Part shown: piece by piece, positions 14,009 through 56,747 of the stretch
How the letters are laid out: each line of letters starts with the position of its first letter
Numbering within the stretch: position 1 is the first letter of the stretch
From: a virus
Length of the DNA: 58,512 nucleotides
IMG/VR virus record: IMGVR_UViG_3300037151_000031
Location: 1-58,512 of that record
Strand: one strand, 5' to 3'
Made by a program: the position numbers and the translations under genes
Notes under the pieces: generated by a model
What the model saw: only the letters and a program-made list of their open reading frames with translations
Database searches by the model: none
What the model was told of the DNA's origin: nothing

Positions 14009-14166
14009 AGCTCACTTACTTCATCCTTTGCCGTCAAGGCGAGCGGACGTGGTTGGTCGAGGCCTTATGGTGCGACTCGCTCGCGGATGCTGAGCGTCAA
14101 GCATCGATGCTGAATGATCGCTTTCCCGACGTTCACCATGAACCCCGTGTGGAGTTGGTTCGATGA
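14005..14166 (+). CDS. Very small hypothetical protein between transferases
   Basis: A 53-residue protein (MKLTYFILCRQG start), joined by 4-nt overlaps on both sides, which argues that it is translated. The sequence WLVEALWCDSLADAERQAS repeats the strand-helix plan of the 12214 and 15190 proteins. Function unknown. Confidence 0.6.
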   Translation: MKLTYFILCRQGERTWLVEALWCDSLADAERQASMLNDRFPDVHHEPRVELVR

Positions 14167-16161: not shown

Positions 16162-16177
16162 CCGCCCTAAAGGGCGG
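16162..16177. repeat. Subterminal hairpin at the tnpB-side end
   Basis: CCGCCC-TAAA-GGGCGG perfect stem-loop containing the tnpB stop codon. In IS605-type elements this end encodes the 3' part of the TnpB guide RNA (omega RNA), transcribed here leftward, with the guide read from the flanking DNA just left of 16155. Confidence 0.7.
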
Positions 16178-17372: not shown

Positions 17373-17382
17373 ACTTGGTCTC

Positions 17383-40194: not shown

Positions 40195-40785
40195 ATGACC
40201 CCGGCGACGTTCTTTCAGCTCTTCCCGGAGTTCGCGGAGACAAGCCCGAACGTCGTAAGCGGGAAGCTGATGCTCGCCGCCGTCGAGATGGGCGGACCTG
40301 ACTTCTCGGTCTGGCCGCAGTTTGCCAGCACGAGCCAGCAGGGGCTGCCCATCACGCCACTGTCGGTCGGGGACCTGGCCCACGGGTACCTGGCCGCGCA
40401 TCTGCTGCAGAGCACGGCGTTCGGCACGGAGACGATGCTCCAGCCGACGCAGGAGACGACATACGGCCGGAAGTTCGACGAGCTCATGAGGTCGGTCGCT
40501 GGCGGGATGGTCGTCGCGGGGCTCGGGCTGGGGAGTCCAGCGGGCCCGGCGCCCGGGTTCGTCCTCGAGCCTGGCTCTGGCACCGTGACGCTCGTGAACG
40601 GTTCGCTGAACGTCACCTTCTCGATCCCGCAGTCGTTGGGAGCGGGGACGGTGATGGCCTTCGTCGGGCTCCAGCCGGGCGCGCTGTACGCCTTGGCGGC
40701 GAACGTGGACGGCACCAGCGGTACGCTCACGGCGCCGTACACGGGCACGTCGGGCGCTTCCAGCTGGAACGTCCAACAGACCTGA
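40195..40785 (+). CDS. Head-completion protein (DUF4054-like) with C-terminal beta module
   Basis: A 196-residue protein. Residues 1-110 look like DUF4054 connector proteins (FFQLFPEFAETSPNVVSGK, LAHGYLAAHLLQ, a late KFDELMRSVAGG). Residues 128-196 are an added beta module (VTLVNGSLNVTFSIPQSL, LQPGALYALAA, SGTLTAPYTG) shared with the tail sheath and baseplate J. The module is probably exposed on the virion neck. Confidence 0.72.
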   Translation: MTPATFFQLFPEFAETSPNVVSGKLMLAAVEMGGPDFSVWPQFASTSQQGLPITPLSVGDLAHGYLAAHLLQSTAFGTETMLQPTQETTYGRKFDELMRSVAGGMVVAGLGLGSPAGPAPGFVLEPGSGTVTLVNGSLNVTFSIPQSLGAGTVMAFVGLQPGALYALAANVDGTSGTLTAPYTGTSGASSWNVQQT

Positions 40786-40879
40786 GCTACGGTCCGCTGC
40801 TCCTGGTGACGGTGCGGGCCGGCGGACGCGAGGACGTGGTGTGCTCGCGTCCGTTCGGTTTTTGTGGCGGGTTGGAGGC

Positions 40880-40885
40880 TACCTT
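40880..40885 (+). promoter_or_regulatory. TACCTT element
   Basis: GCTACCTTTGCCGC directly precedes GTG 40892, 6 nt after the core; it decides the GTG start. Confidence 0.65.
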
Positions 40886-40891
40886 TGCCGC

Positions 40892-41410
40892 GTGCCTGGA
40901 ACGCGCATCGAGGACAAGGATCGAGGCTACAAGGCCCTGGTCGAGCGCCTGTACGGCATGGCGAAAGAGAAGCCGGTCGTCCGCGTCGGGCTGCTCGCAA
41001 AGGATGGCGACCGCCCGTATGTCCGGAAGGCCGATCAGGCCTCGAATGACAACGGTGCCGACGAGGCAATCACCATCCTCCAGGTCGGGATCTTCAACGA
41101 GTTCGGCACGGACAGGATCCCAGAGCGCAGCTTCATCCGCGCGTGGTTCGACGAGCACCAGGCCGAGATCCGCGACAAGTTCACGGTGCTGATGAAGTCC
41201 GTCGTGCGTGGCGACCGGACGAAGGAGCAGATCCTCGACATCATCGGTCTCTGGTGCGTCGGCAGCATCCAGCAGCGGATCTCTGCGGGCATCGGGCCGG
41301 AGAACGCCGAGAGCACGGTCAAGGCGAAGGGGAAGGGGAGCTCGACACCTCTCGTGGACACCGGATCGTTGCGATCAAGTATCAGCTACGAGATTGGGGG
41401 CGGCGGATGA
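40892..41410 (+). CDS. Neck / head-tail joining protein (HK97 gp10-like)
   Basis: A 172-residue protein. Its centre VGIFNEFGTDRIPERSFIR (about residues 65-83) is the hallmark of gp10-type virion morphogenesis proteins (E-x-GT...IP-x-R-x-FxR), and the end TPLVDTGSLRSSISYEI matches the closing TG-x-L-xxSI strand. These proteins connect capsid and tail. Confidence 0.8.
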   Translation: MPGTRIEDKDRGYKALVERLYGMAKEKPVVRVGLLAKDGDRPYVRKADQASNDNGADEAITILQVGIFNEFGTDRIPERSFIRAWFDEHQAEIRDKFTVLMKSVVRGDRTKEQILDIIGLWCVGSIQQRISAGIGPENAESTVKAKGKGSSTPLVDTGSLRSSISYEIGGGG

Positions 41411-41979
41411 CGCAGCAGAACCCATTCGTTCCCGGCGAGATCTTCCCCGAGGAGCAATTCCTCAAGATCCTGACGCTGGCGTCTGGCGTCCAGGTCGTAT
41501 GGAGGGCATCGAAGCGGCCTCACCTCGGGCAGGCTGCGGGAGGGGTCGCCGCGTGGATCGAGGTCTTCGACACGGGTAGCGAGGACGTCGGGCGGGACGA
41601 GCGACGGGTGCAACCGAATCCGGCGACGTCTCCCCCTCAGCAGAGCGCCATCACGATCGGGCATCGCCACGTGACTCTCTCGTGCATGGCGTACAGCCTG
41701 ACGAAGACGCTCAAGGCGAGAGACGTGCTCGCGCGCCTTCGGTTCGGCTTCAACCGGGCGGCCGTGCACGACCTCATGCAGCCGAACATCTCGCTTCGCT
41801 GGTGCGAGCGGATCACGAATCTGCCGGAAGCGGAGGCGAACGGGCGCACCATCTGGAAGGCACACATGGACGTGCAAATGAACCACGTCGTGTCCGCCGA
41901 CACGCTGGATCCGTCGGTCGAGGGGTACGCCCTCTCGGTCAACGGGGGCGGCTTCACTCCGGGGGCGCTGGACCCGTAG
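41407..41979 (+). CDS. Tail terminator / neck protein
   Basis: A 190-residue protein just before the sheath. It begins with a helical segment then LASGVQVVWRASKRPHLG and ends with a beta-hairpin region; order and length suit a tail-terminator. ATGA overlap couples it to the gp10-like gene. Confidence 0.6.
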   Translation: MTQQNPFVPGEIFPEEQFLKILTLASGVQVVWRASKRPHLGQAAGGVAAWIEVFDTGSEDVGRDERRVQPNPATSPPQQSAITIGHRHVTLSCMAYSLTKTLKARDVLARLRFGFNRAAVHDLMQPNISLRWCERITNLPEAEANGRTIWKAHMDVQMNHVVSADTLDPSVEGYALSVNGGGFTPGALDP

Positions 41980-41997
41980 AGAGAAACGCCTCTCACC

Positions 41998-42003
41998 TAC
42001 CTT
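41998..42003 (+). promoter_or_regulatory. TACCTT element upstream of the sheath leader
   Basis: ACCTACCTTCGCGGGC precedes ATG 42011 by 7 nt after the core. Confidence 0.65.
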
Positions 42004-42010
42004 CGCGGGC

Positions 42011-42058
42011 ATGACCGAGGCAGAAACTTGGGCGGCTAGCGGGCGGTGCGGCCGATGA
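42011..42058 (+). CDS. 15-residue leader peptide of the sheath gene
   Basis: ATG 42011 sits at the late-element distance and opens a 15-codon frame (MTEAETWAASGRCGR) whose TGA overlaps the sheath ATG (ATGA). Translation of this leader would couple ribosomes to the sheath start at 42055, which has no good ribosome-binding site of its own. Confidence 0.5.
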   Translation: MTEAETWAASGRCGR

Positions 42059-44160
42059 GTCTCTCCGACTTCGTCGAGAGTACTCTCGCAATCTCGGACG
42101 CAAGCTCTCCGACCGTTCAGAGCCTCAACGTTGGGCTCATCGCCGCGTATCACACGCAATACCCGGCGCGGGTGAAGGTCTACAGCACTTCGTCCGTACT
42201 GACTGAGCTCGTCGCCGATGGCTTCGAGACGTACAGTCCGGTCTACAAGGCGGCAGAGGCTTACGCGGCGGCTCCCAATGCCCCTGCGCTTTTCGCGGTC
42301 GGTCGCCGCGCGCTGGCACCGACGCAGACGCTCCAACTCGCGTGTACGGACGGAACGGTCGGCGACGCGTACGCCTTCACGCTTGTCGGCTCTGGCGGTG
42401 TCGCGAGTCAGCTGAACTACACCAACGTGATCAACCCCGGCGTCGGAATCGACGGCTCCGGCATCACGCTCGCCGGCGACGTCACGCTGGTGCCTGGCTC
42501 GGAGGCGGTGACCTTCGCCAGCGCGCAGACGCTCACGGAGGGCGAGCTCCTCACGTTCTCGGCTCAGCCCACGGTCACCTACGAAGTCGCTGCGGCCACG
42601 ACAGCATCGACGGCCGCAACGCTGACGGCTCCGTACTGGGGCGCGGCGAGCTCGGTCGCGACGACGACGGTGGCCGATCGCACGTCGGTCACCAATGGCC
42701 TGACCACGGTCACGTTCTCGGGGCCGCAGACGCTCGCCAAGGGCTCTCTCCTGATGTTCGAGAGTCAGCCCGGCGTGTACTACGCGCTCGCCGCGCTCGT
42801 CTCTTCCTCGACATCCGGCACGCTCACTACGGCGTACTCCGGCACGACGAACGCAGCGACGCCGACCACGGCGGTCGCGGCGCTCGCGGGTACGTTCGAC
42901 GTCATCAACGGAAGCGCCACGGTCGCGACGACCTCGAGCCAGGTCGCCGGCGTCAATCCGGGCGACAGCCTCCAGTTCTCGACGCAGCTCGGAACGTACT
43001 ACACGGTCGAAGCCGTCACCGCGTCGGCGGTCACGCTCACCTCGCCGTACTCCGGCGTGACGACCACACTGGGATACGCCTCGAACGTCTGCACGGTCTC
43101 GACGGCCGCGGCATATCTCGCATACCTCATCGGCCTCCTGGGGAGCGCGACGGTTCCCAACAACATCGGCACGGTCTCGGTCATCAATAGCCCGGCGCCT
43201 GCATTCCCGACCGTGCTGAAGCTCGTGCAGGTCGCCGGCGCGTTGAACGACGTCCAGTCGTGGGTCGCGAACGGCTTCCACAACATCCAGGTCCAAGACG
43301 TCACGACCGACCCCGGCATCGCGTCCGACCTGGCTGCGATGATCGCCGCCGACAGTGCAGCCTTCTACGGCGTCTTCCTCGACAGCAACTCGCAGGCTGA
43401 GATCGAAGCCGCGGCCGAGCTCATTGAGGCGACGGGCACGGGCGGCAAGACGTTCTGGGGCAACACGAGTGACTACCAGAACACGCTGAGCTCGGTCACC
43501 ACGGACGTCTTCAGCGAGCTCGAGCTCCTGACGCTCAACCGCTCCTTCGTCCAGCAGAACGACCAGCAGCTGCTCTGCTTTGCGGGCGCGGCGACGTGCG
43601 GGCAGGCGCTCGCGATGAACCCTGGCAGCTACACGCTCGCCTACAAGAGTCTCCCCCTCGTCCCGGCAGACAGCGACACGACTCTCACCGAGGGCCAAGC
43701 GCTCGTCATCAACTCGATGACCGCGTCGAACCCAGGCCCCGGCGGCAAGAAGGGGAACTACTACAAGACCGTCGCCGGGCAGAATTGGCTCTGGCCAGGG
43801 TGCGCTCCGTCCGGTCAGTTCTTCGACCTCACCATCGGGATGGACTCGCTGGCGTTGGCGATTCAGCAGGCCGTCGCGGCCACGCTCGCCGGGCTACCGA
43901 AGGTGCCGTTCGATGACTTCGGGCTGCAACTGCTCGGAAGCGCCATCTACGGCGTGCTCGTCCTCTACTCGACGAGCCAATACAACTTCATCCTCCCGAA
44001 CGGACAGGACCCGGCGAGGCCCATCCAGGTCAACACGCCCACGGCCGCGAGCCTCACGTCCGCGCAGCGCGCGAGCCGCGACGTGACCGGCTTCTCGTGG
44101 TCCGCCGGTCTCCAAGGCGCGATTCAGAACGCGGTGCTCAACGGGAAGCTGATTCCATGA
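42055..44160 (+). CDS. Tail sheath protein (DUF3383-like) with three inserted beta modules
   Basis: A 701-residue protein. The N-terminus (SLSDFVESTLAISDASSPTV, then FNV/IAAYHT and TYSPVYKAAEAYAAA) and the C-terminus (DDFGLQLLGSAIYGVLVLY) are of the DUF3383 sheath type. Between them, codons at 42478-43086 encode three successive beta modules of about 65 residues rich in Thr and Ser, making this sheath about 200 residues longer than usual. The sheath contracts to drive the tube through the envelope. Confidence 0.85.
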   Translation: MSLSDFVESTLAISDASSPTVQSLNVGLIAAYHTQYPARVKVYSTSSVLTELVADGFETYSPVYKAAEAYAAAPNAPALFAVGRRALAPTQTLQLACTDGTVGDAYAFTLVGSGGVASQLNYTNVINPGVGIDGSGITLAGDVTLVPGSEAVTFASAQTLTEGELLTFSAQPTVTYEVAAATTASTAATLTAPYWGAASSVATTTVADRTSVTNGLTTVTFSGPQTLAKGSLLMFESQPGVYYALAALVSSSTSGTLTTAYSGTTNAATPTTAVAALAGTFDVINGSATVATTSSQVAGVNPGDSLQFSTQLGTYYTVEAVTASAVTLTSPYSGVTTTLGYASNVCTVSTAAAYLAYLIGLLGSATVPNNIGTVSVINSPAPAFPTVLKLVQVAGALNDVQSWVANGFHNIQVQDVTTDPGIASDLAAMIAADSAAFYGVFLDSNSQAEIEAAAELIEATGTGGKTFWGNTSDYQNTLSSVTTDVFSELELLTLNRSFVQQNDQQLLCFAGAATCGQALAMNPGSYTLAYKSLPLVPADSDTTLTEGQALVINSMTASNPGPGGKKGNYYKTVAGQNWLWPGCAPSGQFFDLTIGMDSLALAIQQAVAATLAGLPKVPFDDFGLQLLGSAIYGVLVLYSTSQYNFILPNGQDPARPIQVNTPTAASLTSAQRASRDVTGFSWSAGLQGAIQNAVLNGKLIP
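42478..43086 (+). repeat. Three tandem copies of a ~65-residue beta module in the sheath
   Basis: Copies start near 42478, 42673 and 42889. Shared pattern: V-x-G-x2-VTF-x2-PQTL-x2-G-x-LL-F-x-SQPG-x-YY-x-LAA, then SGTLT-x-YSGT. The same pattern occurs once at 40576-40782 and once at 55675-55880. Confidence 0.75.
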
Positions 44161-44612
44161 CGACCTTCAACGTCCAAGAGTACGACGCCGACCAGATCGT
44201 CATCATCGTCGCCGGCGTAGCGATCAGCCAGGGCGCGGGCCAGTCCGGCTACGCCGACGGGGAGTTCCTCAGCATCAAGTTCCCCGAGGGCTTCACCTTC
44301 GTGAAGGGCACGGACGGGACGATCGCGCGGTCGAAGACCAACGATCCCAGCTGCGAGATCATGCTGAATCTTCTCCAGACGAACAGCGCGAACGCCGCAC
44401 TTTCCGCGCTCTACGCGCTCGACATCAACCAGCCGAACGGCGCTGGCATCGGGTCCTTCGTGATGAAGGACCTGCAGGGCACGTCTCTCGTCGTCTGCAC
44501 GACGGCGTGGATCAGCAAGCCGGCAGACATCACGCTCGACCGCGGTGCCAAGGGTCGGTCGTGGAGCATCTCGGGGGTGCTTGCCCTAGCTCCGCTAATT
44601 GGAGGCAACTGA
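44157..44612 (+). CDS. Tail tube protein (DUF3277-like)
   Basis: A 151-residue protein right after the sheath, the fixed position of the tube gene. Begins TTFNVQEYDADQIVIIVAG, then GYADGEFLSIKFPEGFTF and SCEIMLNLLQTNSAN, matching DUF3277 tube proteins. It polymerises into the rigid inner tube. Confidence 0.85.
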   Translation: MTTFNVQEYDADQIVIIVAGVAISQGAGQSGYADGEFLSIKFPEGFTFVKGTDGTIARSKTNDPSCEIMLNLLQTNSANAALSALYALDINQPNGAGIGSFVMKDLQGTSLVVCTTAWISKPADITLDRGAKGRSWSISGVLALAPLIGGN

Positions 44613-44616
44613 AAGT

Positions 44617-44632
44617 CTAGCGATTACGCTAG
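44617..44632. terminator. Hairpin after the tube gene
   Basis: CTAGCG-ATTA-CGCTAG perfect stem-loop 4 nt after the tube stop, followed by GTTATAT. It may attenuate transcription into the homing endonuclease gene. Confidence 0.45.
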
Positions 44633-44683
44633 GTTATATGTCGACGTAGCTTCCGCAGTCCCGGCGCTGTAGGACCGTCCACA

Positions 44684-45565
44684 ATGTGGACAATCTACTG
44701 CGTGACTCATGTCGCATCGGGCCGTCGGTACATCGGGCAGACGAAGCTCAGTCTCGAGCGCCGATGGAGGGGCCACCTCGACGCTGCGTTGCGCGGCAAG
44801 CACGACGGACGAAGCCGCTTCGTAAACGCGATGCACAAGTACGGCGCGGAGGCGTTCGTTCGCCACGTCCTAGAGACCTGCAGAACTCAGGAGGATGGGG
44901 ACGATGCCGAGCGTGCGTGGATCGCGTCTTTTTCGACGCAGCATGTCGAGTTCGGATTCAACCTCATGCCGGGCGGCCGAGGTCGCGTGTCCGACGACAA
45001 TCGACGCAGCCCGTGGGCACGCCCCGAGTATCGGGCGTGGCGATCGTCTCCAGAAAGAATGGCGAAGCTTCGTTCTAGACCGTGCCGGTTTTGTGGTCAG
45101 CCAAAGACTGGCCAAGAGAATCGGTGCGTGCCGTGTCGAACAGCATCCCAAGCAAAGCGTCGCCCGACGATGAGCGCATCGGAGCGAGAACGACTGAAGG
45201 CCCACCTCGCCAAGACCTCGGCTGCTTCATGGAAGGATCCAGAGACTCGCGCCAATCGCCTCGCGAAGATGGGTCCAGCGATCTCGGCGGCGTTCAATGC
45301 CCCAGGTCGCCGCGAGCGTGCGTCAGCGTTAGCCAAGGCGCAGTGGCAAGATCCAGACATCCGTTCGAGGAACGTCGCGAGCATGACGGCGACCATGCGG
45401 TCTCCGGAGCGCCGCGCGCGTTGTGCAGCGCGTCCATGCCGGAAGTGCGGCCGTCCGCGGCTGTCGACGAATGCTGGACACCCACGCTGCGGGCCGTGTC
45501 ACGCGAAGGCAGAGCGTGAACGCAAGCAGGCGAAGCGACAGGCGGTTCTCGACGCGGCCGAGTAG
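44684..45565 (+). CDS. Free-standing GIY-YIG homing endonuclease
   Basis: A 293-residue protein with GIY-YIG core WTIYCVTHVASGRRYIGQTK (residues 2-21), ERRWRGHL Arg motif and ERAWIASF Glu motif. The C-terminal part holds two zinc ribbons (CRFCGQ...CVPC, CRKCGRP...CGPC) and helix-turn-helix-like repeats (LAKTSAASWKDPETRAN; ALAKAQWQDPDIRSRN) of the NUMOD type that bind DNA. Such genes invade intergenic sites of T-even-like late operons. Here it separates the tube from the following tail genes. Confidence 0.85.
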   Translation: MWTIYCVTHVASGRRYIGQTKLSLERRWRGHLDAALRGKHDGRSRFVNAMHKYGAEAFVRHVLETCRTQEDGDDAERAWIASFSTQHVEFGFNLMPGGRGRVSDDNRRSPWARPEYRAWRSSPERMAKLRSRPCRFCGQPKTGQENRCVPCRTASQAKRRPTMSASERERLKAHLAKTSAASWKDPETRANRLAKMGPAISAAFNAPGRRERASALAKAQWQDPDIRSRNVASMTATMRSPERRARCAARPCRKCGRPRLSTNAGHPRCGPCHAKAERERKQAKRQAVLDAAE

Positions 45566-45577
45566 CAGGCTCAAGCC

Positions 45578-45583
45578 TATCTT
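45578..45583 (+). promoter_or_regulatory. TATCTT element after the homing endonuclease
   Basis: GCCTATCTTCTCGGG directly precedes GTG 45590, 6 nt after the core. It would restart late transcription past the inserted endonuclease gene. Confidence 0.55.
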
Positions 45584-45589
45584 CTCGGG

Positions 45590-45742
45590 GTGACTGACAC
45601 ACCGATTCCTCCCGCCCCGGCTCCGAAGAAGAAGCCGTGTCCGGCGTGCGGTGAGAAGAAGGCTGACTCGGTCCCTGACACCGAGCCCGCCCCGCGCCAC
45701 GACTCGGGCACGGCGGACGGATCCATGCGGTACGGAGGCTAG
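45590..45742 (+). CDS. Small protein with CPACG knuckle
   Basis: A 50-residue protein beginning VTDTPIPPAPAPKKKPCPAC. Only one CxxC pair, otherwise Pro/Lys-rich and disordered. GTG start set by the late element; stop is 2 nt before the next gene. Confidence 0.5.
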   Translation: MTDTPIPPAPAPKKKPCPACGEKKADSVPDTEPAPRHDSGTADGSMRYGG

Positions 45743-45744
45743 CC

Positions 45745-46155
45745 GTGGCAGCGAACACCCATATGTCGATCGCGACGTGGAACGCCGCGCTGGACGCTGG
45801 CCTGAACCCGCTCAATAGCGGGTTCCTAGAGATCTGGTCCGGGTCGCAACCGGCGACGCCTGACGTTGCTCCGACGGGCGGGAACGTGCTCCTCGCGACG
45901 TTGAACCTGTCGGCGACGGCCTTCACGGCGAGCTCGGGCGGGACGAAGACAGCGAACGCCATCACCTCGGGGACGGCTGCGGCCACCGGGACGGCGACCT
46001 GGTTCCGTGCGTACGACAGCAACGGAACGACGGCCGTGATCGATGGCAGCGCCGGGATCTCCGGAACGGACATGATTCTCGCGACCGCTTCGATCGTGAC
46101 GGGCGCCGTCGTGAGCTGTTCGGGGTGGTCGGTCTCGATGCCGGTGGGCCAGTAA
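45745..46155 (+). CDS. Thr/Ala-rich tail-associated protein
   Basis: A 136-residue protein, GTG start. It is Thr/Ser/Ala/Gly-rich and probably beta (FLEIWSGSQPATPDVAPTG, TATWFRAYDSNGTTAVID). Similar small proteins are found among tail genes of phages with tail-tube accessory proteins; unassigned. Confidence 0.55.
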   Translation: MAANTHMSIATWNAALDAGLNPLNSGFLEIWSGSQPATPDVAPTGGNVLLATLNLSATAFTASSGGTKTANAITSGTAAATGTATWFRAYDSNGTTAVIDGSAGISGTDMILATASIVTGAVVSCSGWSVSMPVGQ

Positions 46156-46156
46156 G

Positions 46157-46513
46157 ATGGGTGCCCCCGTACAGAACCCGAATGACGGCACGACGCTGGG
46201 AACGTCGGAGGTCATCTCCGACGAGGCGATTGATCCCCAGGTTGGCGGTCGCCGTGACCAATACCTCCCGGTCACGCTCTACAAAGCGCCGCGGTCCAAG
46301 ATTGCGGTCGGTCCATACGGGCAGGACTGGGGCGATGCCACTCAAGACCAGCCACTCGCCGTCGAGTCGCGTTCGCAACGGCAAATCGCCGAGACGGTGA
46401 GCCTCACGCAACGCGACCAGGCGCAGTCCGATTTCATTGCAGCCGCGGGATTTCACAACTTGACGCTAAGCGACTCACGAGGCGCCCACTTCAGCAACCG
46501 AGGCACACGATGA
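46157..46513 (+). CDS. Hypothetical tail-region protein
   Basis: A 118-residue protein starting MGAPVQNPNDGTTL. Polar, with RDQYLPVTLYKAPRSKIAVG. Overlaps the next gene by 4 nt. No family recognised. Confidence 0.55.
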   Translation: MGAPVQNPNDGTTLGTSEVISDEAIDPQVGGRRDQYLPVTLYKAPRSKIAVGPYGQDWGDATQDQPLAVESRSQRQIAETVSLTQRDQAQSDFIAAAGFHNLTLSDSRGAHFSNRGTR

Positions 46514-47175
46514 TATTCGAAGGCATTGCCCAGAGGTTCGTTCAGCGCGCTGCCAGCCAGTTGGCCTCGAGGTTCACAGAGCTCGGGTCCTTGGCTGTCG
46601 ACCAGGTAAAGGAGTCCGGCGACGAGATGACGCGCGCTGGGTGCCGTTACCACCTCAGCGCAGAAGGCGCGACTGGCGTCGCGGCCGGCGTCACGATTCC
46701 GTCCACTGCGGCCAGCTGGATGCTCTACAACCCGATCGCCAACAACGTGACGGCGTGGATCGACCGCATCGCGGCGGTCAACAACTCTGGCACCGGTGGT
46801 GCGACGGGCGGCGCCATATGGGTGTGTCTCGTTCCACCAAAGTTCGCTCCGTCGTCGATCGCCACTGTCAGCACGGCGAACGTCACGATCCAGAACGCCA
46901 ATCCCGCGAGCACGAAGCAGTCGAACCTCGTGTGCACGTCGGGCGTGACGCTGCAAAACGCCGCCGTAGGCAACTGGTTCCCGGTTGCGAGCTCGACGTC
47001 TGCTACTGCCGTCCTCCTAAACGGCTACCTCATCGATTCCGGATGGGACATCCGCGGCAAGATCGCCATTCCGCCTGGTTGTGGCCTCGCGATGTATGTC
47101 GTGATGGCTATCGCAAACTCCCCCGTATTCGTGCCGCTATTCTCCTGGCGCGAGTACGCCTCCGACACGGAGTAA
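46510..47175 (+). CDS. Hypothetical tail-region structural protein
   Basis: A 221-residue protein. The first 45 residues are helical, and the rest is beta-rich with many Ala/Thr/Ser/Val (TVSTANVTIQNANPASTK). Probably a virion component given composition and neighbours. Confidence 0.5.
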   Translation: MIFEGIAQRFVQRAASQLASRFTELGSLAVDQVKESGDEMTRAGCRYHLSAEGATGVAAGVTIPSTAASWMLYNPIANNVTAWIDRIAAVNNSGTGGATGGAIWVCLVPPKFAPSSIATVSTANVTIQNANPASTKQSNLVCTSGVTLQNAAVGNWFPVASSTSATAVLLNGYLIDSGWDIRGKIAIPPGCGLAMYVVMAIANSPVFVPLFSWREYASDTE

Positions 47176-47181
47176 CCCTCC

Positions 47182-48090
47182 GTGGCGGGCGGACTCGGGT
47201 CCTACGCGCTCCTCCTCGTCGAGGCGAGCGGACTTGCGCCCGTCAATTTGACGGGCGGCCAGACCGCGCTTCGACTCGGCGGCAGGCTGACGGCCATCGT
47301 TCCGAATCCGGTCGCGCTCGTTGGGTCGCAAAAGGTCCTGAACAGTGGCGGCCGCATCCTTCCGCTCGCCACGGTGCCGCGCACGGTCGCCCCGTACCTG
47401 CGTGGGCCGGCGGGGCTCGGGGGCGCGGCGACGCTGGTACGGGTCGCGCTCGCGCGACCCGTACCAGTCAAGGCTGCTCCGACGCCCACGCCGCAGTCCT
47501 ACGCCTCCGCCATCGTCCAGGGGCTCGGGTCGGTCACCCAGGTCGCCACAGCAGCCGAGACGATCACGAGCACGGCGGCGCAATCGGTCGGTGGAGTCCA
47601 GCAGACCGCATCAGAGGCAGAGCTCATCTCAGGCACGGCGGCGCAACGCGTCATCGGTGTCATCCAGTCAGCGGCCGTAGCCGAGACCATCGCGACGAGC
47701 GCGACGCAGCATGTCGTGGGCGTGCGGCAGACAGCAGCCGAGGCGGAGCTTGTCGCGACGTCGATCGTCCAGCGCGTGACCGGCGTTCGACAGACAGCCT
47801 CGGAGACCGAGCTTGTCACCTCCACGGTCGCGCAGCGCGTCGGGGGAGTCGTCCAGTCGGCGACGGAAGCCGAGGCGATCTCTGCCGCCGTCGCGCAGCG
47901 CGTTCTAGGCGTCCGACAGTCGGCGGTCGTGGGCGTGCAGAACGCTCTCCTGGTGCGCTTGCGCCAGCGAGCGCGAGGCGTGACGCAGTTCGCTTTCGCA
48001 CAGCAATCGGTCACCCCGGTGCCCGCTGTGGCCCACGCGCGTCAGCGGATTGGCGCGGTGCAGCAGTTCGCCTTTATCTCGAAAGAATAG
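47182..48090 (+). CDS. Tail-region protein with tandem 21-residue repeats
   Basis: A 302-residue protein, GTG start. From about residue 115 to 250 it contains six or seven 21-residue repeats of pattern AQRV-x-GV-x-Q-x-A-x2-AE-x-I-x2-(S/T), encoded by 63-bp DNA repeats (about 47520-47960). Heptad-like periodicity suggests an elongated coiled-coil or solenoid fibre. The C-terminus repeats RQRARGVTQFAFAQQ and RQRIGAVQQFAF. Likely a fibre or whisker. Confidence 0.6.
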   Translation: MAGGLGSYALLLVEASGLAPVNLTGGQTALRLGGRLTAIVPNPVALVGSQKVLNSGGRILPLATVPRTVAPYLRGPAGLGGAATLVRVALARPVPVKAAPTPTPQSYASAIVQGLGSVTQVATAAETITSTAAQSVGGVQQTASEAELISGTAAQRVIGVIQSAAVAETIATSATQHVVGVRQTAAEAELVATSIVQRVTGVRQTASETELVTSTVAQRVGGVVQSATEAEAISAAVAQRVLGVRQSAVVGVQNALLVRLRQRARGVTQFAFAQQSVTPVPAVAHARQRIGAVQQFAFISKE

Positions 48091-48100
48091 ACGTCCTGCC

Positions 48101-48106
48101 TACCTT
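48101..48106 (+). promoter_or_regulatory. TACCTT element
   Basis: CCTACCTTTGGGGC directly precedes ATG 48113, 6 nt after the core. Confidence 0.65.
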
Positions 48107-48112
48107 TGGGGC

Positions 48113-48586
48113 ATGAGCCGGACGGTTACGAAGCTGACGATCGAAGGGGTCGTCTACGAGATTACGCAGGTCGGTGCCGAGACCGGAGACGCGATCCTTT
48201 TCCGCGTCGGGCAGGCCCTTGCGATGTCGCTCACGGCCACCTCGCTCGCCGACATCCTGGTGCGGCTGATGCGCAATCTGTCGATCGAGGACTTCGTCTG
48301 GCTCCGCAACGAGATGAAGAAGTGCACCAAGGTGGGCATCGTCGACACCGTGGGGGATGGCCGAGTGACGTTCACGCCGCTGGCGCCGCTCTATGACGAC
48401 CACTTCGCCGGCCGATACATGGCGGCGCTCGAGTGGCTGAAGGGAGCGCTCGAATCGAACTTCGGCGCTTTTTTCGTCGAGTTCATCCGACGCGCGCAGT
48501 CCGCAAAGGCCGTGGAGGCGTCGGCCTCCGAGAACCCGAAGGCGGCCGCTGGTTCCTCTGGCGCATCCTCCTCAGCGAGCGGATGA
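48113..48586 (+). CDS. Tail assembly chaperone (short form)
   Basis: A 157-residue zero-frame product between the tail region and the tape measure. Core helices run through SLADILVRLMRNLSIEDFVW, and FAGRYMAALEWLKGALESNFGAFFVEFI precedes a low-complexity tail (SSGASSSASG). Chaperones of this position coat the tape measure during tail assembly. ATG is set by the late element. Confidence 0.8.
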   Translation: MSRTVTKLTIEGVVYEITQVGAETGDAILFRVGQALAMSLTATSLADILVRLMRNLSIEDFVWLRNEMKKCTKVGIVDTVGDGRVTFTPLAPLYDDHFAGRYMAALEWLKGALESNFGAFFVEFIRRAQSAKAVEASASENPKAAAGSSGASSSASG

Positions 48587-48717
48587 AGGTGGTCTCGCTC
48601 GCCGACCTCGAGCGGGATTGGTCGATCGTGGACTGCATGGTCGCCCACGAGTGGCTGAATGAGTTCGAGGACGCCGAGGCAACCATGCGAGCGCGGCAGG
48701 AGACGAAGACCCCATGA
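48113..48717 (+). CDS. Tail assembly chaperone, -1 frameshift long form (G-T type)
   Basis: Ribosomes slipping -1 at the T-TTT-TTC heptamer (48469-48475) leave the short frame after about residue 121 and read on without a stop to 48717, giving about 201 residues. The added part ends ERMKVVSLADLERDWSIVD, then HEWLNEFEDAEA, typical of the T domain of phage G-T proteins. The T domain may also start alone at ATG 48583. Confidence 0.72.
48469..48475 (+). promoter_or_regulatory. Slippery heptamer for -1 frameshifting
   Basis: TTTTTTC read in zero frame as GCT TTT TTC, an exact X-XXY-YYZ site. It lies in the last quarter of the short chaperone frame, and the -1 frame is open from here to the end of the next product. 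Confidence 0.8.
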
Positions 48718-50375: not shown

Positions 50376-51346
50376 CCCAGTCGATCACTGTCGGTTCTGG
50401 CGCGAACTGGTACGGCGCTCCGGGGAGTCCCGCGCCCAAGGCGGTCGTTCAATTCATCGACGCGAGCGGCGCGAACAACACGCTCACCTTCGATGCGGTC
50501 GTCAAAGAAGAGTGGGACGAGGGAGCAGATATCACTGAGCATGCCGTCGAGGTGGGCAGCAACATTGCCGACCACGTTCGCGTCAAACTCATCACGTGCA
50601 GCTTGCAAGTCTACATATCCAACGAGCCGCTCGGGGTGGCCAGCAACTCCGGACAGGGCGCGAATCAGCCGACCGAGACTCCAACGTCGCTCAATGTGCC
50701 CACGGTCACGTGGACGAAGCATTCGCGCGATCTCATCTATCCAATCTGGGAGAACCAGATCCTTGCAAGGTCGCTCTTTCAGCTGGCCGCGGGGACTGTT
50801 GGTGACGTTGCAGGAGGCGGCACGGGGAGCGCGATAGGAGCGATCGGCGGAGAACTACTCGCCGGCCTGCTCTTTCAGGGGAAGGCCGTGACCGTCGCTA
50901 CTCCGACGACCGCGGGTCTCAGCCCTGTGGTGCAGCCTGGACCGACGGCACTCGTGAACTTGTTCGCCGACGAAACGGACTATGTCGCAGCCATGCACAC
51001 GGCTCTCTCGACGCTCAAGAGCTCGGCGCAATTGTTCAGTGTGCTTGGCACCAAAAAAGTGCTTTTCCCGATGGCAATCGAGAGCCTCGACTTCTCGCGT
51101 TCGGCAGAGACAGGCTCGGGGGAGAACATCACGATCGGCTTCAAAGAGATGCGGATCGTGACCACTCAGGTCGTGCCCGCGCCGATCCCTAACTTATCCG
51201 CCGGCGGAGGCACGCCGGCCGCCAATCATGGTGGGCAGGACCCCGCGCCCGTCGTCCAGCAGTCGGCTGCATCCGCCGCGCTCGCTGCGGTCGTGGGCTA
51301 CTTCTCGCCGGCCACGCAATCCGCTGTCACCGGAGCGGGCCTGTGA
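50372..51346 (+). CDS. Baseplate protein (Dit-like N-terminus)
   Basis: A 324-residue protein, GTG start overlapping the tape-measure stop. Residues 35-80 (FDAVVKEEWDEGADITEHA, ADHVRVKLITCSLQVYIS) resemble Dit-like phage tail N-domains. A Gly-rich hydrophobic stretch (AIGAIGGELLAGLLFQG) lies in the middle. Likely attaches tail tube end to the hub. Confidence 0.62.
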   Translation: MTQSITVGSGANWYGAPGSPAPKAVVQFIDASGANNTLTFDAVVKEEWDEGADITEHAVEVGSNIADHVRVKLITCSLQVYISNEPLGVASNSGQGANQPTETPTSLNVPTVTWTKHSRDLIYPIWENQILARSLFQLAAGTVGDVAGGGTGSAIGAIGGELLAGLLFQGKAVTVATPTTAGLSPVVQPGPTALVNLFADETDYVAAMHTALSTLKSSAQLFSVLGTKKVLFPMAIESLDFSRSAETGSGENITIGFKEMRIVTTQVVPAPIPNLSAGGGTPAANHGGQDPAPVVQQSAASAALAAVVGYFSPATQSAVTGAGL

Positions 51347-51771
51347 TTCTCAGCGTCCCCACCTTCTCGGACCCTTCATGGACCCAGTCCACGACGTTCG
51401 AGGGAACGAAGTACACGCTGGAGTTCGACTACAACCAGCGATGCGCGAGCTACTACATGAGCATCGCGGACGCCGACGGGGTCGACATCTACAACGGCGT
51501 GAAGGTGGTGTGCGGGTTTCTGCTGCTGAGGAAATGCAAGGACTCGCGTCGACCGCCCGGCGACCTCATCTGTCTATCATCGAAGCCCGACACGTCGCCG
51601 CCGACGATGCTGGATCTCCTGCCAGGCTCGGGCCGATGCACGCTGTACTACATCACCAGCGACTGGCTCCAGATCGTAGAGTCTGGCAACGTGGCGGCCA
51701 TCGAGGCGCTGTTTGTTCAGATCGCTGCCAACGCCCAGACATCGTCTCTATCCACCTACGGACAACAGTGA
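51343..51771 (+). CDS. Baseplate plug protein (DUF6983-like)
   Basis: A 142-residue protein, GTG start. The pattern TTFEGTKYTLEFDYNQRCASYYM, then ADADGVDIYNGVKVVCGFLLLR and RRPPGDLICLSS, follows the DUF6983 family typified by the plug protein of the cyanophage Pam3 baseplate. It probably closes the central tube at the hub. Confidence 0.7.
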   Translation: MILSVPTFSDPSWTQSTTFEGTKYTLEFDYNQRCASYYMSIADADGVDIYNGVKVVCGFLLLRKCKDSRRPPGDLICLSSKPDTSPPTMLDLLPGSGRCTLYYITSDWLQIVESGNVAAIEALFVQIAANAQTSSLSTYGQQ

Positions 51772-51778
51772 GGACACC

Positions 51779-52051
51779 ATGAAAGTTGAGCACACGGTTA
51801 CGTATCGCGGCGGCAAGCCGGTCACGAAGGTCGTGAAGCCCGCGGCCCCGAAGCTTCCGACCCGCACGGAGCTCGTCAATGCGAAGAAGGCTGCGGCCGG
51901 ACATCGCAAGTTCCAGGCGGACTATGTCGCTAAGGCGAAGGCCGCGACCGGCAAGGACAAGGCAGACTTCGAGGCGCTCGCCGCGACGCACAAGTCCGCC
52001 GCCGAGAAGGCCGAGAAGACCCTCCAGAGCGCGCCGAAAAAGAAGAACTGA
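51779..52051 (+). CDS. Small Lys/Ala-rich baseplate-region protein
   Basis: A 90-residue basic protein. GAGGA lies upstream of ATG 51779. Composition Lys/Ala-rich with helical repeats (AKKAAAGHRKFQADYVAKA). Function unknown. Confidence 0.6.
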   Translation: MKVEHTVTYRGGKPVTKVVKPAAPKLPTRTELVNAKKAAAGHRKFQADYVAKAKAATGKDKADFEALAATHKSAAEKAEKTLQSAPKKKN

Positions 52052-52052
52052 C

Positions 52053-52967
52053 GTGACGCAGTCGGCGATCCCGGCGCCGTTCTCGCTGTTCCTGCGCTCG
52101 TGCGTGGTGACCGTGGGAACGATCCAGGTTAGCAACGTCGGGCTCCAGAGTGGGCTCGACATCTGGTTCAAGATCAAGCGCACGCTCAAGCCGGGCGAAA
52201 GCAGCACGTGCGACCTGAAGCTGACGAACCTCGCCGACGCCACGCGCCAGACGATCGAGTCCTATACGAAGGCGAGCGTGCCGACGGGCGCTCCACCGGG
52301 AGCCACGCCGACGAGTATTGTCCCGGTGACGATTGCGGCGGGCTACGTGGGCAACTCGAGCACGATCTTCGCGGGCCAGATGCGAAGCGCGCAGACCGTC
52401 CAGAACGACGCCGACTTCATCACGGAGCTGAACACGGGCGACGGGGACGAGGCGAAGCTGCTCGCGCGTTCGACCGCGAGCTTCGGCACGGGCGCGAATG
52501 CCTACGTCGTGGCGGTGAAGCTCATGAACGACATGGGGTGTGGCTTCGGTAATCTGGCGTCGGTTGCGAGCATCTTGCGCGCGGCCCCGCTCTTCTCTGC
52601 CGGGTGCGTCATCAAGGGCAACAGCAACTCGATTCTATCCGACGTTGCGACCGCATGCGGGCTCGAGGTCAGCATCCAGGGCGGCGTCGCGCAGTGGCTC
52701 ACGCAGGGGCAACCACTCGGGGGCCAGGCATACTTGCTCAGCTCCAACACGGGCATGATTGGCTCCCCCACGGTCGACACGAAGGGCATCCTTCACGTCG
52801 AGACGGTTCTCCTGCCGGGGCTGGCCCCGGGGCAACCGATCCAGGTCAATGCGAAGTTCGTGCAGGGGCTATTCAGGATCCGCGACATCGAGACCACGGC
52901 TGACACGAGCACCGAGAATTGGGGACATAGCCTGGAGTGCGCTCGCATCGGTCTGGGGGTTGGCTGA
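52053..52967 (+). CDS. Baseplate hub protein (gpD/gp27-like)
   Basis: A 304-residue protein, GTG start. The order VTVGTIQVSNVGLQSGLDI, CDLKLTNLADATRQTIESY, then GYVGNSSTIFAGQMRSAQT and a late KGNSNSILSDVATACGLEV is that of phage hub proteins in which a barrel domain is followed by a second domain. It precedes the spike gene as expected. Confidence 0.75.
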   Translation: MTQSAIPAPFSLFLRSCVVTVGTIQVSNVGLQSGLDIWFKIKRTLKPGESSTCDLKLTNLADATRQTIESYTKASVPTGAPPGATPTSIVPVTIAAGYVGNSSTIFAGQMRSAQTVQNDADFITELNTGDGDEAKLLARSTASFGTGANAYVVAVKLMNDMGCGFGNLASVASILRAAPLFSAGCVIKGNSNSILSDVATACGLEVSIQGGVAQWLTQGQPLGGQAYLLSSNTGMIGSPTVDTKGILHVETVLLPGLAPGQPIQVNAKFVQGLFRIRDIETTADTSTENWGHSLECARIGLGVG

Positions 52968-52970
52968 GCG

Positions 52971-53819
52971 ATGGAGCGCCAAGTCCAAGTCTCCGAAGTC
53001 GTGTCCGCCGGCACCGACGCCCTCCTCGGGTCGGTCTATATCTCCATGCTTGCGAGCGTCATTTCCTACAACGCGATGACTCAGGTCGCGATGGTGCAGC
53101 CCATCCTGCAAGACGTTCGGTTCGACCTCGACACGGACGTTCCGTACGGCGAGCCGTGGCCGTCGTTCTCGGTCAAGGTGGCGTGGCCGACGTTCGGCGG
53201 ATGCGTGCTCGCGGGGAACCTGAAGCCGAACGACGTGGTGACGCTCGAGGCCTTCGACTTCGATCCGTCGGTCATCACGAAGCTCGGCAGCGCAACCGTC
53301 ATGCCGGTCGACGTGCGCAAGCTCGGGGGGCATGCGTGGCGCGCGGTCCCGCAAGGGCTGATCGTGCCCATCGCGACGGCGGAGGCGACCGCAGCGGCGG
53401 CCGGCCTGGTGATCGGGGTCGTCGGGGGCGCCCAGTGGCGCGTGACGACGGCGGGCGCGGTCTCGCTCGTGGGGGCCACCTCGGCGTCCATCGGCGACGC
53501 CACGACGACGAGCGCCAGCCTCGGCGGGGCGAACACGGCCATAGCGACCATCGGGGGCGCCTCCACGACGTCTGTCGCGCTTGGCCCGGGGACGACGCCC
53601 ATGGCGCTGGCCCCCCCGCTCGTGACCGCTCTGACGGCCCTGGCGGCCTACTGTCAGGGGCTCACGGCCGCAGCGACGGCGGGGGCCGCGGTGCCCGACC
53701 CGACTGGGGTGGCCTTCCAGACGTTCGCCATCGCCCTCGAGGGACTCGGCCCCGTGGTTGCGGCGGCGCTGGCTGCGGCAGAATCGGCGACACCCGCGCT
53801 CGTGGTCAAGGGCGCGTAG
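52971..53819 (+). CDS. Baseplate spike (Gp138 N-domain, gpV-like)
   Basis: A 282-residue protein. Residues 20-125 (VYISMLASVISYNAMTQVA, VKVAWPTFGGCVLAGNLKP) correspond to the Gp138/gpV OB-fold domain. The centre is a Thr/Ser/Gly repeat stalk (ATSASIGDATTTSASLGG...) of the triple-beta-helix spike type. The spike punctures the outer membrane. Confidence 0.8.
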   Translation: MERQVQVSEVVSAGTDALLGSVYISMLASVISYNAMTQVAMVQPILQDVRFDLDTDVPYGEPWPSFSVKVAWPTFGGCVLAGNLKPNDVVTLEAFDFDPSVITKLGSATVMPVDVRKLGGHAWRAVPQGLIVPIATAEATAAAAGLVIGVVGGAQWRVTTAGAVSLVGATSASIGDATTTSASLGGANTAIATIGGASTTSVALGPGTTPMALAPPLVTALTALAAYCQGLTAAATAGAAVPDPTGVAFQTFAIALEGLGPVVAAALAAAESATPALVVKGA

Positions 53820-53830
53820 TCAAAGGGGGC

Positions 53831-54022
53831 CTAGCGGCGACGATTGGCCCAGCACTTCGGACAGTGAATCCACTGCATCCCGGTGTCACCGAACCAGCCA
53901 CCTAATTGGCCGGATTTCATCCAGCCGGACTCGGCGATGTCAGGATGAGGCGTGATCGTCTCGGCGCACGAATCGCAGTCGAGGCGCACGAGCTTCCCCT
54001 CTTTGGAATAGACACGTCCCAT
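53831..54022 (-). CDS. Small zinc-ribbon protein in leftward cassette
   Basis: A 63-residue protein with CDSC and CPKC pairs (residues about 16-19 and 54-57). Its ATG lies 2 nt from the stop of the secreted protein gene, so they form a leftward cassette within the rightward baseplate operon. Confidence 0.6.
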   Translation of the reverse strand: MGRVYSKEGKLVRLDCDSCAETITPHPDIAESGWMKSGQLGGWFGDTGMQWIHCPKCWANRRR

Positions 54023-54023
54023 G

Positions 54024-54725
54024 TCAGTGACATTCCGAGTGCCAGCCGCGCCAAGCGTGCTTCCGGACCTTCACGTACTCCGCCGCGAAGGACGCGAGCG
54101 TGGCCTCATCCTGCTGAATCTGCGCGCCGGCCATGTGTAGGTCGACCACGTTGACGTAGCCGGAGGGGTTGGCGTTCTCGTGGACGATGAAGGCGCGCTG
54201 CGTCTCGCGGTCCTGGTCGGCGGCGCACATCGGCTGGACGGTCACCGTGAAGAAGTCGCGCTCGGCCTGCTCCGCACGCCGCTTGCCGATGCACTTGGCG
54301 TCTGCTCGGCACGTCTTCTCGGCAGTGACGTCATGCTGAAACGCCTCGAGCAACGCCGGCGGCGGCTCGGCCACCGGATGTCCGCAGTCCGCCACGATCG
54401 CCCGCATGCGAGCAAGGGATGCCATGATCTCGTCAACGGCGGTGTCGACGGCGGCATCGGGCCGTGTGACCAGCGATGCGCTCCAGTCGCGCAGCTGCGC
54501 CCCGAGCACTTTGAGCTCGGCCTGCTCGGCGAAGACACGTCGCTGCTCGGCATGCAGCGCGGTCGTGGCTTCGACCGACTCACGTCCCGTCATCGGCGCG
54601 GGCTTCATCGCGAGGACGGCGGAGATGCTCGCGCCCAGCGTGGCGCCCCATGTGGGGGCATCCGTTTCTGCAAGCGCCGGTCGCGCGAGCGTCATGATGA
54701 GAACCAGTGTGCTAAGCGTCTTCAT
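54024..54725 (-). CDS. Secreted/periplasmic protein, phage moron candidate
   Basis: A 233-residue protein with a clear signal peptide (MKTLSTLVLIMTLARPALA, cleavage after ALA). AAGGAAA precedes ATG 54725. The mature part is helical with cysteines in ADCGHP, KTCRADAKCIG and MCAADQD. Opposite orientation, own leader hairpin and signal peptide are typical of morons expressed from a prophage or early in infection to modify the envelope, for example superinfection exclusion. No family recognised. Confidence 0.65.
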   Translation of the reverse strand: MKTLSTLVLIMTLARPALAETDAPTWGATLGASISAVLAMKPAPMTGRESVEATTALHAEQRRVFAEQAELKVLGAQLRDWSASLVTRPDAAVDTAVDEIMASLARMRAIVADCGHPVAEPPPALLEAFQHDVTAEKTCRADAKCIGKRRAEQAERDFFTVTVQPMCAADQDRETQRAFIVHENANPSGYVNVVDLHMAGAQIQQDEATLASFAAEYVKVRKHAWRGWHSECH

Positions 54726-54752
54726 GTGCGGGTTTCCTTTCGCCCGCGCCAC

Positions 54753-54782
54753 GGGCTCGGGCATGTGGTGTGCCGCGAGCCC
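54753..54782 (-). promoter_or_regulatory. Strong hairpin in the moron gene leader
   Basis: GGGCTCG/CGAGCCC with inner GGCA/TGCC, one bulged G, closing a 7-nt loop, just upstream of the moron ribosome-binding site. A TATACT box lies further upstream on the same strand. It may act as a terminator for the opposite strand or as a regulatory leader. Confidence 0.45.
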
Positions 54783-54847
54783 ATTCTTATGGCGCTGAGG
54801 AGAGTATAGCTCCCTTCCCGAAGGCCCGCTAGAGCCTCCCGTCTGCC

Positions 54848-54853
54848 TACCTT
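54848..54853 (+). promoter_or_regulatory. TACCTT element after the leftward cassette
   Basis: CCTACCTTTGCGCGGG precedes ATG 54862 by 8 nt after the core; it would restart baseplate transcription after the moron cassette. Confidence 0.6.
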
Positions 54854-54861
54854 TGCGCGGG

Positions 54862-55233
54862 ATGTCGACCACGCTTCGCACTGACACGGGGGACATGGTG
54901 CTTCCGCGCGTGATCGTCACGGATCCGCTGAGCGTCTGCCTGCAAACGCTGAAGGACCATCTCGCGCTTGTTCGCGGAGAATATTTTCTAGATCAAAGCG
55001 TTGGCACGCCGTGGCTCCAGATCCTCGGCGTCAAGATCCTGAACGACGCCCAGGCGGTCGCGATGATCACGTCTGTGATCTCCGCGGTATCTGGAATCGT
55101 CAATACGGTAGTCCAGGTGAAGCTGGATCGCGTGAATCGCTCTTTTTCGTATTCCTACCAATGCACATTCAATAGCGGCGCGATCATCACGGGCGGGAAC
55201 GGCCAGCCGCCCACGGTTCAGGGAGGCAGCTGA
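54862..55233 (+). CDS. Baseplate wedge protein (gp25/W-like)
   Basis: A 123-residue protein. LRTDTGDMVLPRVIVTDPL, LKDHLALVRGEYFLDQSVG and VPWLQILGVKILN, then VDRVNRSFSYSYQCTF near the end, match gp25/DUF2634-type wedge proteins that precede baseplate J. Confidence 0.78.
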   Translation: MSTTLRTDTGDMVLPRVIVTDPLSVCLQTLKDHLALVRGEYFLDQSVGTPWLQILGVKILNDAQAVAMITSVISAVSGIVNTVVQVKLDRVNRSFSYSYQCTFNSGAIITGGNGQPPTVQGGS

Positions 55234-56747
55234 TGGCGAGCTATGGCGTGACTCCCGCGGGCTTCGTTGTTCCGCCGCTCTCTTCCATCCTTGCTGGGAT
55301 GCAGGCGCAGGTGCTCGCGACGGTCGACCCGCAATACGACCTCTCCCCCAACACGCCCGACGGCCAGATCCTCGGCATCGTCGCGAATCAATACGCGTCT
55401 CTCTGGGAACTCGCGCAGGTTTGCTGGAACTCCTACAACCGCGAGGACGTGGAGGGCGCGGGCCTCGACAATCTCGGCGACATCACGGGCACGCCGAGGG
55501 AGGGGCCGAGCTTCACGCAGGTCGTCGCGCAACTCCTCATCGCAACCGGGACGTACGCCGCAAGCACGTGGGATCCGACGACGAGTGCGTTGACGAGTTC
55601 TACTCTCGTCGCGAACGTAGCGGGCGCCCAGACGTTCACGTTCGCGAACGCGGAGACGTTCACGGTCGCTGCGTACTCGGGGACGGTCGATGTCACCTCC
55701 GGTTCGCCGGCCATCACGTTCTCGGTACCGCAGACGATCCCTGTGGGTACGGTGCTGTGGTTCGAGAGCCAGCCGGGCGTCCCATACACAACGCTGGCGG
55801 CCATCACCGCGAGCACGACGTGCACGCTGACTACGCAGTACACGGGCGGCTCGGCCCCGACGACGACGGCCATTCCAGCGACGTATACGCTCTTTCAGTC
55901 GACGGTCATCTCGACGACGCCGAGCGTGAACGCGGGGACGCTGACCGACATCACGACTCCGGTCACTGGTTGGTACACGGTCAACAACGTGCTCGCGCAG
56001 TCGCAGCTTGGCACCGACGGCGAGCTCGACGCTGCCTACGCGCTTCGCCAAGCGCAGGACGTTGCCGCGGAAGGCTCGTGCACCTCGGCAGCCACGGCGG
56101 CGGCTCTCAACGAACTCGGCGCGGCGCAGACTCCTCCCGTCAGCCTCACCGTGACGGTGCTCGAGAACACGGAGAACTTCGCGCAACTGATCACGGGCGT
56201 GCTCATGCCCCCGCACACGTACCTCGCGTCCGTGTACGACGGCGGCACGGGATGGGCGACGTCCACGGCCGGGCAAGCGGCAATCGGCGCGGTCATCTAC
56301 GCGAACAAGCCGGCGGGCATCTCGAGCGCTGGAGTCGTGGGCGCGGTCCAAGTCCCGATTCAGGACCCGTACTTGGGCGCCATTTTTGTCTACTACTTTT
56401 CGCCCGTGCAGCTTCCGCTGTACATCTCATCGACCATCGCGATTCGATCTGGGTACGTTTGGTCGCAGGTCGAAGCGGCCATCCAGCAAGCGCTCGTATC
56501 GGCGGCGGTCGCGCCAGATCTCTCGACGGGACAGGCCCCGGTCGGGCAGCTCGCGCCGGGCGCGGACGTCATCGGCTCGCAACTCTCCGCGGTCATCGCC
56601 GGCGTCCCTGGCGTGTACGACATCCAGAGTCTGACCTTCGGCTTCAGCGTCGCTCCAGTGAACACGAGCCCGCTGCTCGTCTCGGGTACGCAGGTCGCTA
56701 CCGTGCTTCCGGCGAACATCGCGCTCGTGCAGGGAAGACTGCCCTGA
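55233..56747 (+). CDS. Baseplate J-like protein with inserted beta module
   Basis: A 504-residue protein. N-terminal VPPLSSILAGMQAQVLATV, DLSPNTPDGQILGIVANQY and NYNREDVEGAGLDNLGDITG, then HYGxDGELDAAYALRQ-type region and IPGVYDIQSL-type end, are typical of the gpJ/Mu gp47 family. Between about residues 148 and 216 (55675-55880) it carries the same beta module seen in the sheath (VDVTSGSPAITFSVPQT, FESQPGVPYTTLAA). Confidence 0.82.
   Translation: MASYGVTPAGFVVPPLSSILAGMQAQVLATVDPQYDLSPNTPDGQILGIVANQYASLWELAQVCWNSYNREDVEGAGLDNLGDITGTPREGPSFTQVVAQLLIATGTYAASTWDPTTSALTSSTLVANVAGAQTFTFANAETFTVAAYSGTVDVTSGSPAITFSVPQTIPVGTVLWFESQPGVPYTTLAAITASTTCTLTTQYTGGSAPTTTAIPATYTLFQSTVISTTPSVNAGTLTDITTPVTGWYTVNNVLAQSQLGTDGELDAAYALRQAQDVAAEGSCTSAATAAALNELGAAQTPPVSLTVTVLENTENFAQLITGVLMPPHTYLASVYDGGTGWATSTAGQAAIGAVIYANKPAGISSAGVVGAVQVPIQDPYLGAIFVYYFSPVQLPLYISSTIAIRSGYVWSQVEAAIQQALVSAAVAPDLSTGQAPVGQLAPGADVIGSQLSAVIAGVPGVYDIQSLTFGFSVAPVNTSPLLVSGTQVATVLPANIALVQGRLP
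55675..55880 (+). repeat. Beta module copy in baseplate J
   Basis: About 68 residues matching the sheath modules in the pattern VTSGSPAITFSVPQTIPVG, FESQPG, then LTTQYTG. No corresponding insert is expected in J proteins of this length class. Confidence 0.7.

Follow-up and report, generated by a model that had tools for sequence, protein, structure and literature searches.

Why does one short, Thr/Ser-rich sequence recur in several proteins of the same phage particle? This question is raised by a 58,512-base linear IMG/VR record, the whole of which was analysed and is referred to here as the window. The original prediction described one module of ~65 residues occurring at the C-terminus of the protein encoded from 40195, three times in tandem in the tail sheath and once in the baseplate J or wedge protein (gpJ). 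When the gpJ copy alone was used as query against the window's own record, exactly these five places were matched, i.e., the query itself (55689-55853), 42688-42843 (E 1.9e-13), 42490-42645 (1.1e-9), 40594-40749 (1.3e-8), and 42898-43056 (0.0023). The predicted coordinates agree with those obtained here, with the sheath modules spanning 42475-43101. Matches of a five-copy profile elsewhere in the window had E values of at least 0.07 and were treated as chance. The five copies show 31-48% pairwise protein identity and 12 invariant columns in their alignment. The predicted consensus was right as to the recurrence of the module but too strict as printed, with FESQPG being found in 2/5 copies.

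Table 1. Module copies, carrier proteins and sugar-related genes in the window (G001, sister phage; gmd, GDP-mannose 4,6-dehydratase; FucT, fucosyltransferase).
Feature	Positions	Strand	Basis and remarks
O-fucosyltransferase-like gene (weak)	12555..13211	+	PF10250 E 3.2e-4, below cut-off; 42% to G001 gene
Uncharacterised protein	13208..14008	+	39% over 210 aa to sister; adjoins FucT-like genes
Second O-fucosyltransferase-like gene (weak)	14163..14972	+	PF10250 E 2.2e-5, below cut-off; E 1.4e-24 to G001
GDP-mannose 4,6-dehydratase (gmd)	17843..18802	+	TIGR01472 475.3 bits, cut-off 415; 58.5% to G001 gene
Capsid cement protein without module (empty site)	37502..38092	+	PF22758 E 3.1e-11; one copy here in sister
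Head-completion/adaptor-like protein, 196 aa	40195..40785	+	phrog_302 E 1.9e-7; sister adaptor stops where module starts
Module copy "ad"	40576..40782	+	gpJ-copy search and alignment; C-terminal third of 40195 protein
Tail sheath protein, 704 aa	42046..44160	+	phrog_205 E 1e-41; 58% to sister sheath
Module copy M1, sheath	42475..42684	+	no counterpart in sister G001 sheath
Module copy M2, sheath	42679..42894	+	aligned with first sheath copy of sister G001
Module copy M3, sheath	42883..43101	+	groups with second sheath copy of sister G001, support 95/92
Baseplate J/wedge protein, 504 aa	55233..56747	+	phrog_6 E 7.4e-29
Module copy in gpJ	55680..55880	+	sister G001 has E1_FCCH module at site

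The carrier proteins are otherwise unrelated, as had been proposed, with the sheath belonging to phrog_205 (E 1e-41) and the baseplate wedge protein to phrog_6 (E 7e-29). The head-completion role predicted for the 40195 protein, here called the adaptor, stands as a weak assignment (phrog_302, head and packaging, E 2e-7; DUF4054 below the cut-off). The structural gene order of the window matches that of other contractile-tailed phages, e.g., Pantoea phage SSEM1 and Pseudomonas phage MiCath. The window sheath comprises 704 residues compared with 483 in SSEM1, 428 in Bitten and 455 in MiCath, and the adaptor 196 residues compared with 125 in SSEM1. Directly after the tail-tube gene, a GIY-YIG endonuclease gene is located (44684-45565; PF01541, E 1.7e-9), to which two genes of the sister phage introduced below are related, one of them in the same position. 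Further features of the window are a protein with ~21-residue repeats of the V-x-Q-x-A-x-E-A-E type (47182-48090; 63-base spacing; no Pfam match), Gly-rich repeats of the families D6, D9, and D18 near the window end (57767-58475), perhaps part of a truncated fibre gene, and, on the minus strand (45-781), two overlapping frames with Gly-Tyr and Arg-Val repeats of low complexity.

A sister phage, IMGVR_UViG_3300027908_000022 (G001; 104,108 bases), was reached via an alignment of gpJ N-termini (A2), its gpJ being 63% identical to that of the window over the N-terminus and ~45% over the whole protein. The five-copy profile detected three modules in G001 (E 8e-18 to 2e-13) and, as nothing from the sister had entered this profile, homology and not chance composition explains the recurrence. 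Counted by pairwise alignment, the window and G001 feature 0 and 1 copies in the cement protein, 1 and 0 in the adaptor, 3 and 2 in the sheath, and 1 and 0 in gpJ, respectively, so that at least four states differ between the sisters. The adaptor of G001 terminates at the point where the window module starts, and its gpJ bears an E1_FCCH segment at the module site (Pfam match of 43.5 bits, cut-off 29.5). In the module tree, the sole firm grouping (95/92) joins M3 to the second sheath copy of G001, the remaining six copies being left without resolution. Thus, at least one sheath copy is older than the split between the two phages, and the one kept in both is 53% identical. Concerted evolution within one genome was considered as well, but M3, being grouped with the corresponding sister copy, shows no sign of it. 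In both phages, all eight copies have kept their reading frames open and share the core columns.

Beyond this pair, the module was absent from the relatives compared. In an alignment of the window sheath with 22 other sheaths, the three modules lie in one stretch that is missing from 21 of them, the exception being G001. Likewise, none of 79 further gpJ-related viral records, many of which are fragments, contained the module (0/50 obtained with profile A1 and 0/29 with profile A6); G001 was positive with the five-copy profile and again in the 29-record search with profile A6. After leaving out 8 partial sequences from 79 gpJ homologues, the 71 complete ones represented 66 distinct proteins, and in 64 of these the spacing between two conserved blocks was 49-99 residues, i.e., without an insert. 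Both exceptions (L029 and L051) contain an insert of another kind at the module site. This third insert type (L029, 9974-11377; L051, 9989-11380) is characterized by W-x-G-x-T... GPTGTG-x-GIVDG...W and has no Pfam match. A genome-contig search with the sheath revealed no relatives, and the one with gpJ four distant matches without the module, which was found in 0/3 of these genomes when searched whole. Single-protein scans of viral contigs with the sheath, major capsid protein, gpJ, and module gave zero relatives, and viral-contig scans with window and G001 alignments of the sheath and capsid protein gave nothing beyond G001. The module sequence of the window found nothing in phage records even at E 10, the 40195 protein had no match among phage records at E 1, and no family was found for the module in Pfam and PHROGs. 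A 398-genome sample of one phylum yielded a single match (L120, 1483-2481, genome G211), in which a prophage-type protein with collagen-like repeats bears at its N-terminus a module of the siphophage "GT" type treated below. No published description of the module was found in a literature search that largely covered sources outside subscription journals and hence counts as weak evidence.

The case in which all members of each carrier family have the segment, raised together with the original prediction, did not occur, as homologues without the module exist. Judged by these alignments, the module is an accessory and not an integral part of its carrier proteins. Its gain in this lineage, with two carriers, is the simpler account because it is absent from all more distant relatives. 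The portability originally proposed is borne out by this absence from homologues, by the different placement in the two sisters and by the other module at the sister gpJ site.

With regard to the fold, the check for unrelated structures covered one AlphaFold model of the aligned copies. From all eight of them, a 72-residue all-beta model with seven strands was obtained (mean pLDDT 84.9, pTM 0.69), and in this prediction the module folds on its own. A Foldseek search of the module against the PDB gave no match with E <0.001. In a second structure search against the PDB, chains of phage tailspike, tail-tip, tail-tube, and capsid proteins came first (best Z 7.6), followed further down by Uba1 FCCH regions (chain region 185-263, Z ~5.4) and ATPase barrels. 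With Z <8 and common arrangements, these PDB matches were set aside as evidence of family membership. Among the matches listed for predicted viral structures, the named neighbours were mainly tail, fibre, and structural proteins, with one head-to-tail adaptor and one sheath. Ig-like, Big, and FN3 Pfam models did not match the module, and concerning the question of an Ig fold, the best structural matches (Z <8) are a mix of phage and barrel proteins. The E1_FCCH model (PF16190) matched none of the five copies, and homology of the module to E1_FCCH is not supported by hhalign (0.3%, with 27/100 shuffles as good).

The lead to a remote family came from a weak PDB sequence match, 23gd_B (E 0.21), which was not among the 50 matches listed by either structure search. 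With 23gd_B as query, the GT module was found in 222 phage records. Alignment of both modules by hhalign resulted in 95.5% and a score of 44.6 over 69 columns of the 74-column profile, whereas the best of 200 column shuffles reached 19.4 (0/200 as good) and the reversed control 9.5. A 100/98 split in the tree separates the module copies from the siphophage GT set, of which the module is consequently a distinct branch. Being accessory, differently distributed in the sister and linked to the GT module, it belongs to a known kind of portable virion domain and is unusually mobile.

Comparison with the structurally described XM1 offers an indication of where the modules are placed in the particle. 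Profile A7 matches the XM1 sheath gp6 (7kh1, E 8e-53), for which an insertion domain in the N-terminal domain, possibly acquired by gene exchange, is described (PMC10457771). The same source describes an inserted wing-like domain II (residues 87-178) in gp16, which we read as the counterpart of gpJ, and a decoration protein, gp53, which lies on the capsid surface and reinforces the capsid (PMC10457771). By alignment, the sheath and gpJ inserts of the window would fall in variable insertion or wing regions as in XM1. The Pam3 sheath alignment passes over the entire insert region, which suggests that this region is dispensable. The cement proteins of both phages match PF22758, the family of E217 gp24 and Pam3 gp6. 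The placement of the sheath and gpJ inserts and the extra copy in the cement protein of the sister point indirectly to a location of the modules on the virion surface. A model of the 704-residue sheath has pLDDT <50 at residues 92-289 and 333-421, i.e., in most of the insert, and is too weak for conclusions on exposure. As the gp16 wing of XM1 is reported to cover gp12 inside the baseplate (PMC10457771), the gpJ copy may be partly exposed only, and the C-terminus of the adaptor could be turned towards the portal or tail lumen.

The module is probably a portable accessory domain which is displayed on the outside of the virion and acts as a weak multivalent adhesion or spacer unit. The adhesion part of this explanation is inferred, weak adhesion to surfaces or glycans being the most likely function. 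A small all-beta barrel would be inserted in loops or added to the end of capsid-shell, neck, tail-sheath, and baseplate proteins. Starting from the sheath copies common to both phages, the module would have been duplicated and recombined into permissive loops within this lineage. Like the sheath and cement proteins themselves, the modules would be exposed on the outside in many copies per particle and could keep the virion close to the host envelope or to its glycan layer. Since the insertion points appear to tolerate different modules, the surface might be changed without altering the core machinery.

A different role, namely as acceptor for virion O-glycosylation, with phage enzymes adding a deoxy sugar to Thr/Ser and thereby shielding or disguising the particle, is rather unlikely in our assessment. 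Thr and Ser account for 26-35% of the window copies and 24-30% of the G001 copies compared with 13-20% in nine other virion segments of the window; nevertheless, such values are to some extent typical of the wider family (20-27% in ten siphophage relatives), and a Thr/Ser-rich sequence is well suited to beta strands. The window encodes gmd, which lies above the NCBIfam equivalog cut-off, and two O-FucT-like genes, which reach 24.7 and 20.8 bits against PF10250 and are therefore under Pfam's cut-off of 31.5. In G001, the only other carrier found, three such genes adjoin one another, namely gmd, one FucT-like gene and a GDP-L-fucose-synthase-like gene (NF047922, 363.5 bits against a cut-off of 500); tblastn with the last of these found no synthase in the window. 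None of the 29 module-less relatives, several of which are fragments, has either the GDP-mannose dehydratase or the O-FucT-like family, but the co-occurrence of sugar genes and module in two phages of one lineage amounts to one observation. The sugar-related genes common to both carriers lend glycosylation circumstantial support, but the cassette could instead serve lipopolysaccharide change. Directly before gmd (16167-17814), a divergent gene pair is located which we take to resemble an IS200/IS605 element. For a mycobacteriophage, an announcement suggests capsid glycosylation on the basis of glycosyltransferase genes (PMC11256854). That the portable Thr/Ser-rich barrel is specifically paired with the phage's own GDP-deoxysugar and O-fucosyltransferase-like genes, so that whichever part carries it becomes sugar-coated, seems quite improbable; if true, it would represent a transferable glycosylation tag for the whole virus particle, from cement and neck to sheath and baseplate.

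The inserts could also be structural, with extra barrels stiffening or spacing neighbouring subunits of sheath rings, capsomer joints or the wedge and with no outside partners. The sites do occur in proteins packed as symmetrical arrays, and the decoration protein of XM1 is described as reinforcing the capsid (PMC10457771). Nevertheless, this explanation is unlikely, as copy number and location vary between the sisters while the core proteins are ~45-58% alike, and a different module is possible at the gpJ site, neither of which would readily be tolerated by specific interfaces. Near-neutral recombination leftovers in permissive loops, without a selected function, would fit the frequent state changes in two phages and the divergence of the copies to 26-53% identity, but are highly improbable given the open frames and same core columns in 8/8 copies and the sheath copy kept in both phages at 53% identity.

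For the portable accessory domain with a presumed adhesive function, the distribution of the module represents a natural experiment on the insertion-tolerant sites of a contractile phage. The virus appears to shift a surface accessory around its shell, with the sister having it in other parts, and both hypotheses, adhesion and glycosylation, could be tested by a comparison of the copies in a single particle.

Among known systems, the siphophage GT module, as found in 23gd_B ("distal tail protein gp20"), N15 gp25 and tail proteins of SPN3UB and Midgardsormr38, is remotely homologous over the whole module. It stands at the N-terminus or nearly so in 8/9 examples, in tail-type or unnamed proteins, with L104 featuring an internal one, whereas the module of the window and G001 is internal, tandem or C-terminal and occurs in the sheath, adaptor, gpJ, and, in the sister, cement protein. 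Phage E1_FCCH modules (PF16190) are of similar size and take the place of the module in gpJ of the sister, but have no detectable sequence relation to it. Ig-like accessory domains of phages (PMC10385173), including Hoc, are likewise small, beta-structured and exposed on proteins of the virion, and mucus adhesion has been reported for Hoc; unlike these, the module matches no Pfam Ig family. The insertion domain of the XM1 sheath is also located in the N-terminal domain and thought to be acquired; it resembles domain D3 of the flagellar cap FliD (PMC10457771), whereas the window contains three tandem copies of a module which recurs in other virion proteins. The same principle underlies the domain mosaicism of phages, in which domains are exchanged between proteins differing in function, although recent exchange is described as centring on tail fibres, spikes, endolysins, and polymerases, and "sheath" is not mentioned in that text (PMC10684548). 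Accessory domains in phage virions and their movement by other phages are known already; what is new is that so many different virion parts bear the module in one phage, that its distribution differs in the sister and that one of the sites is occupied there by another module.
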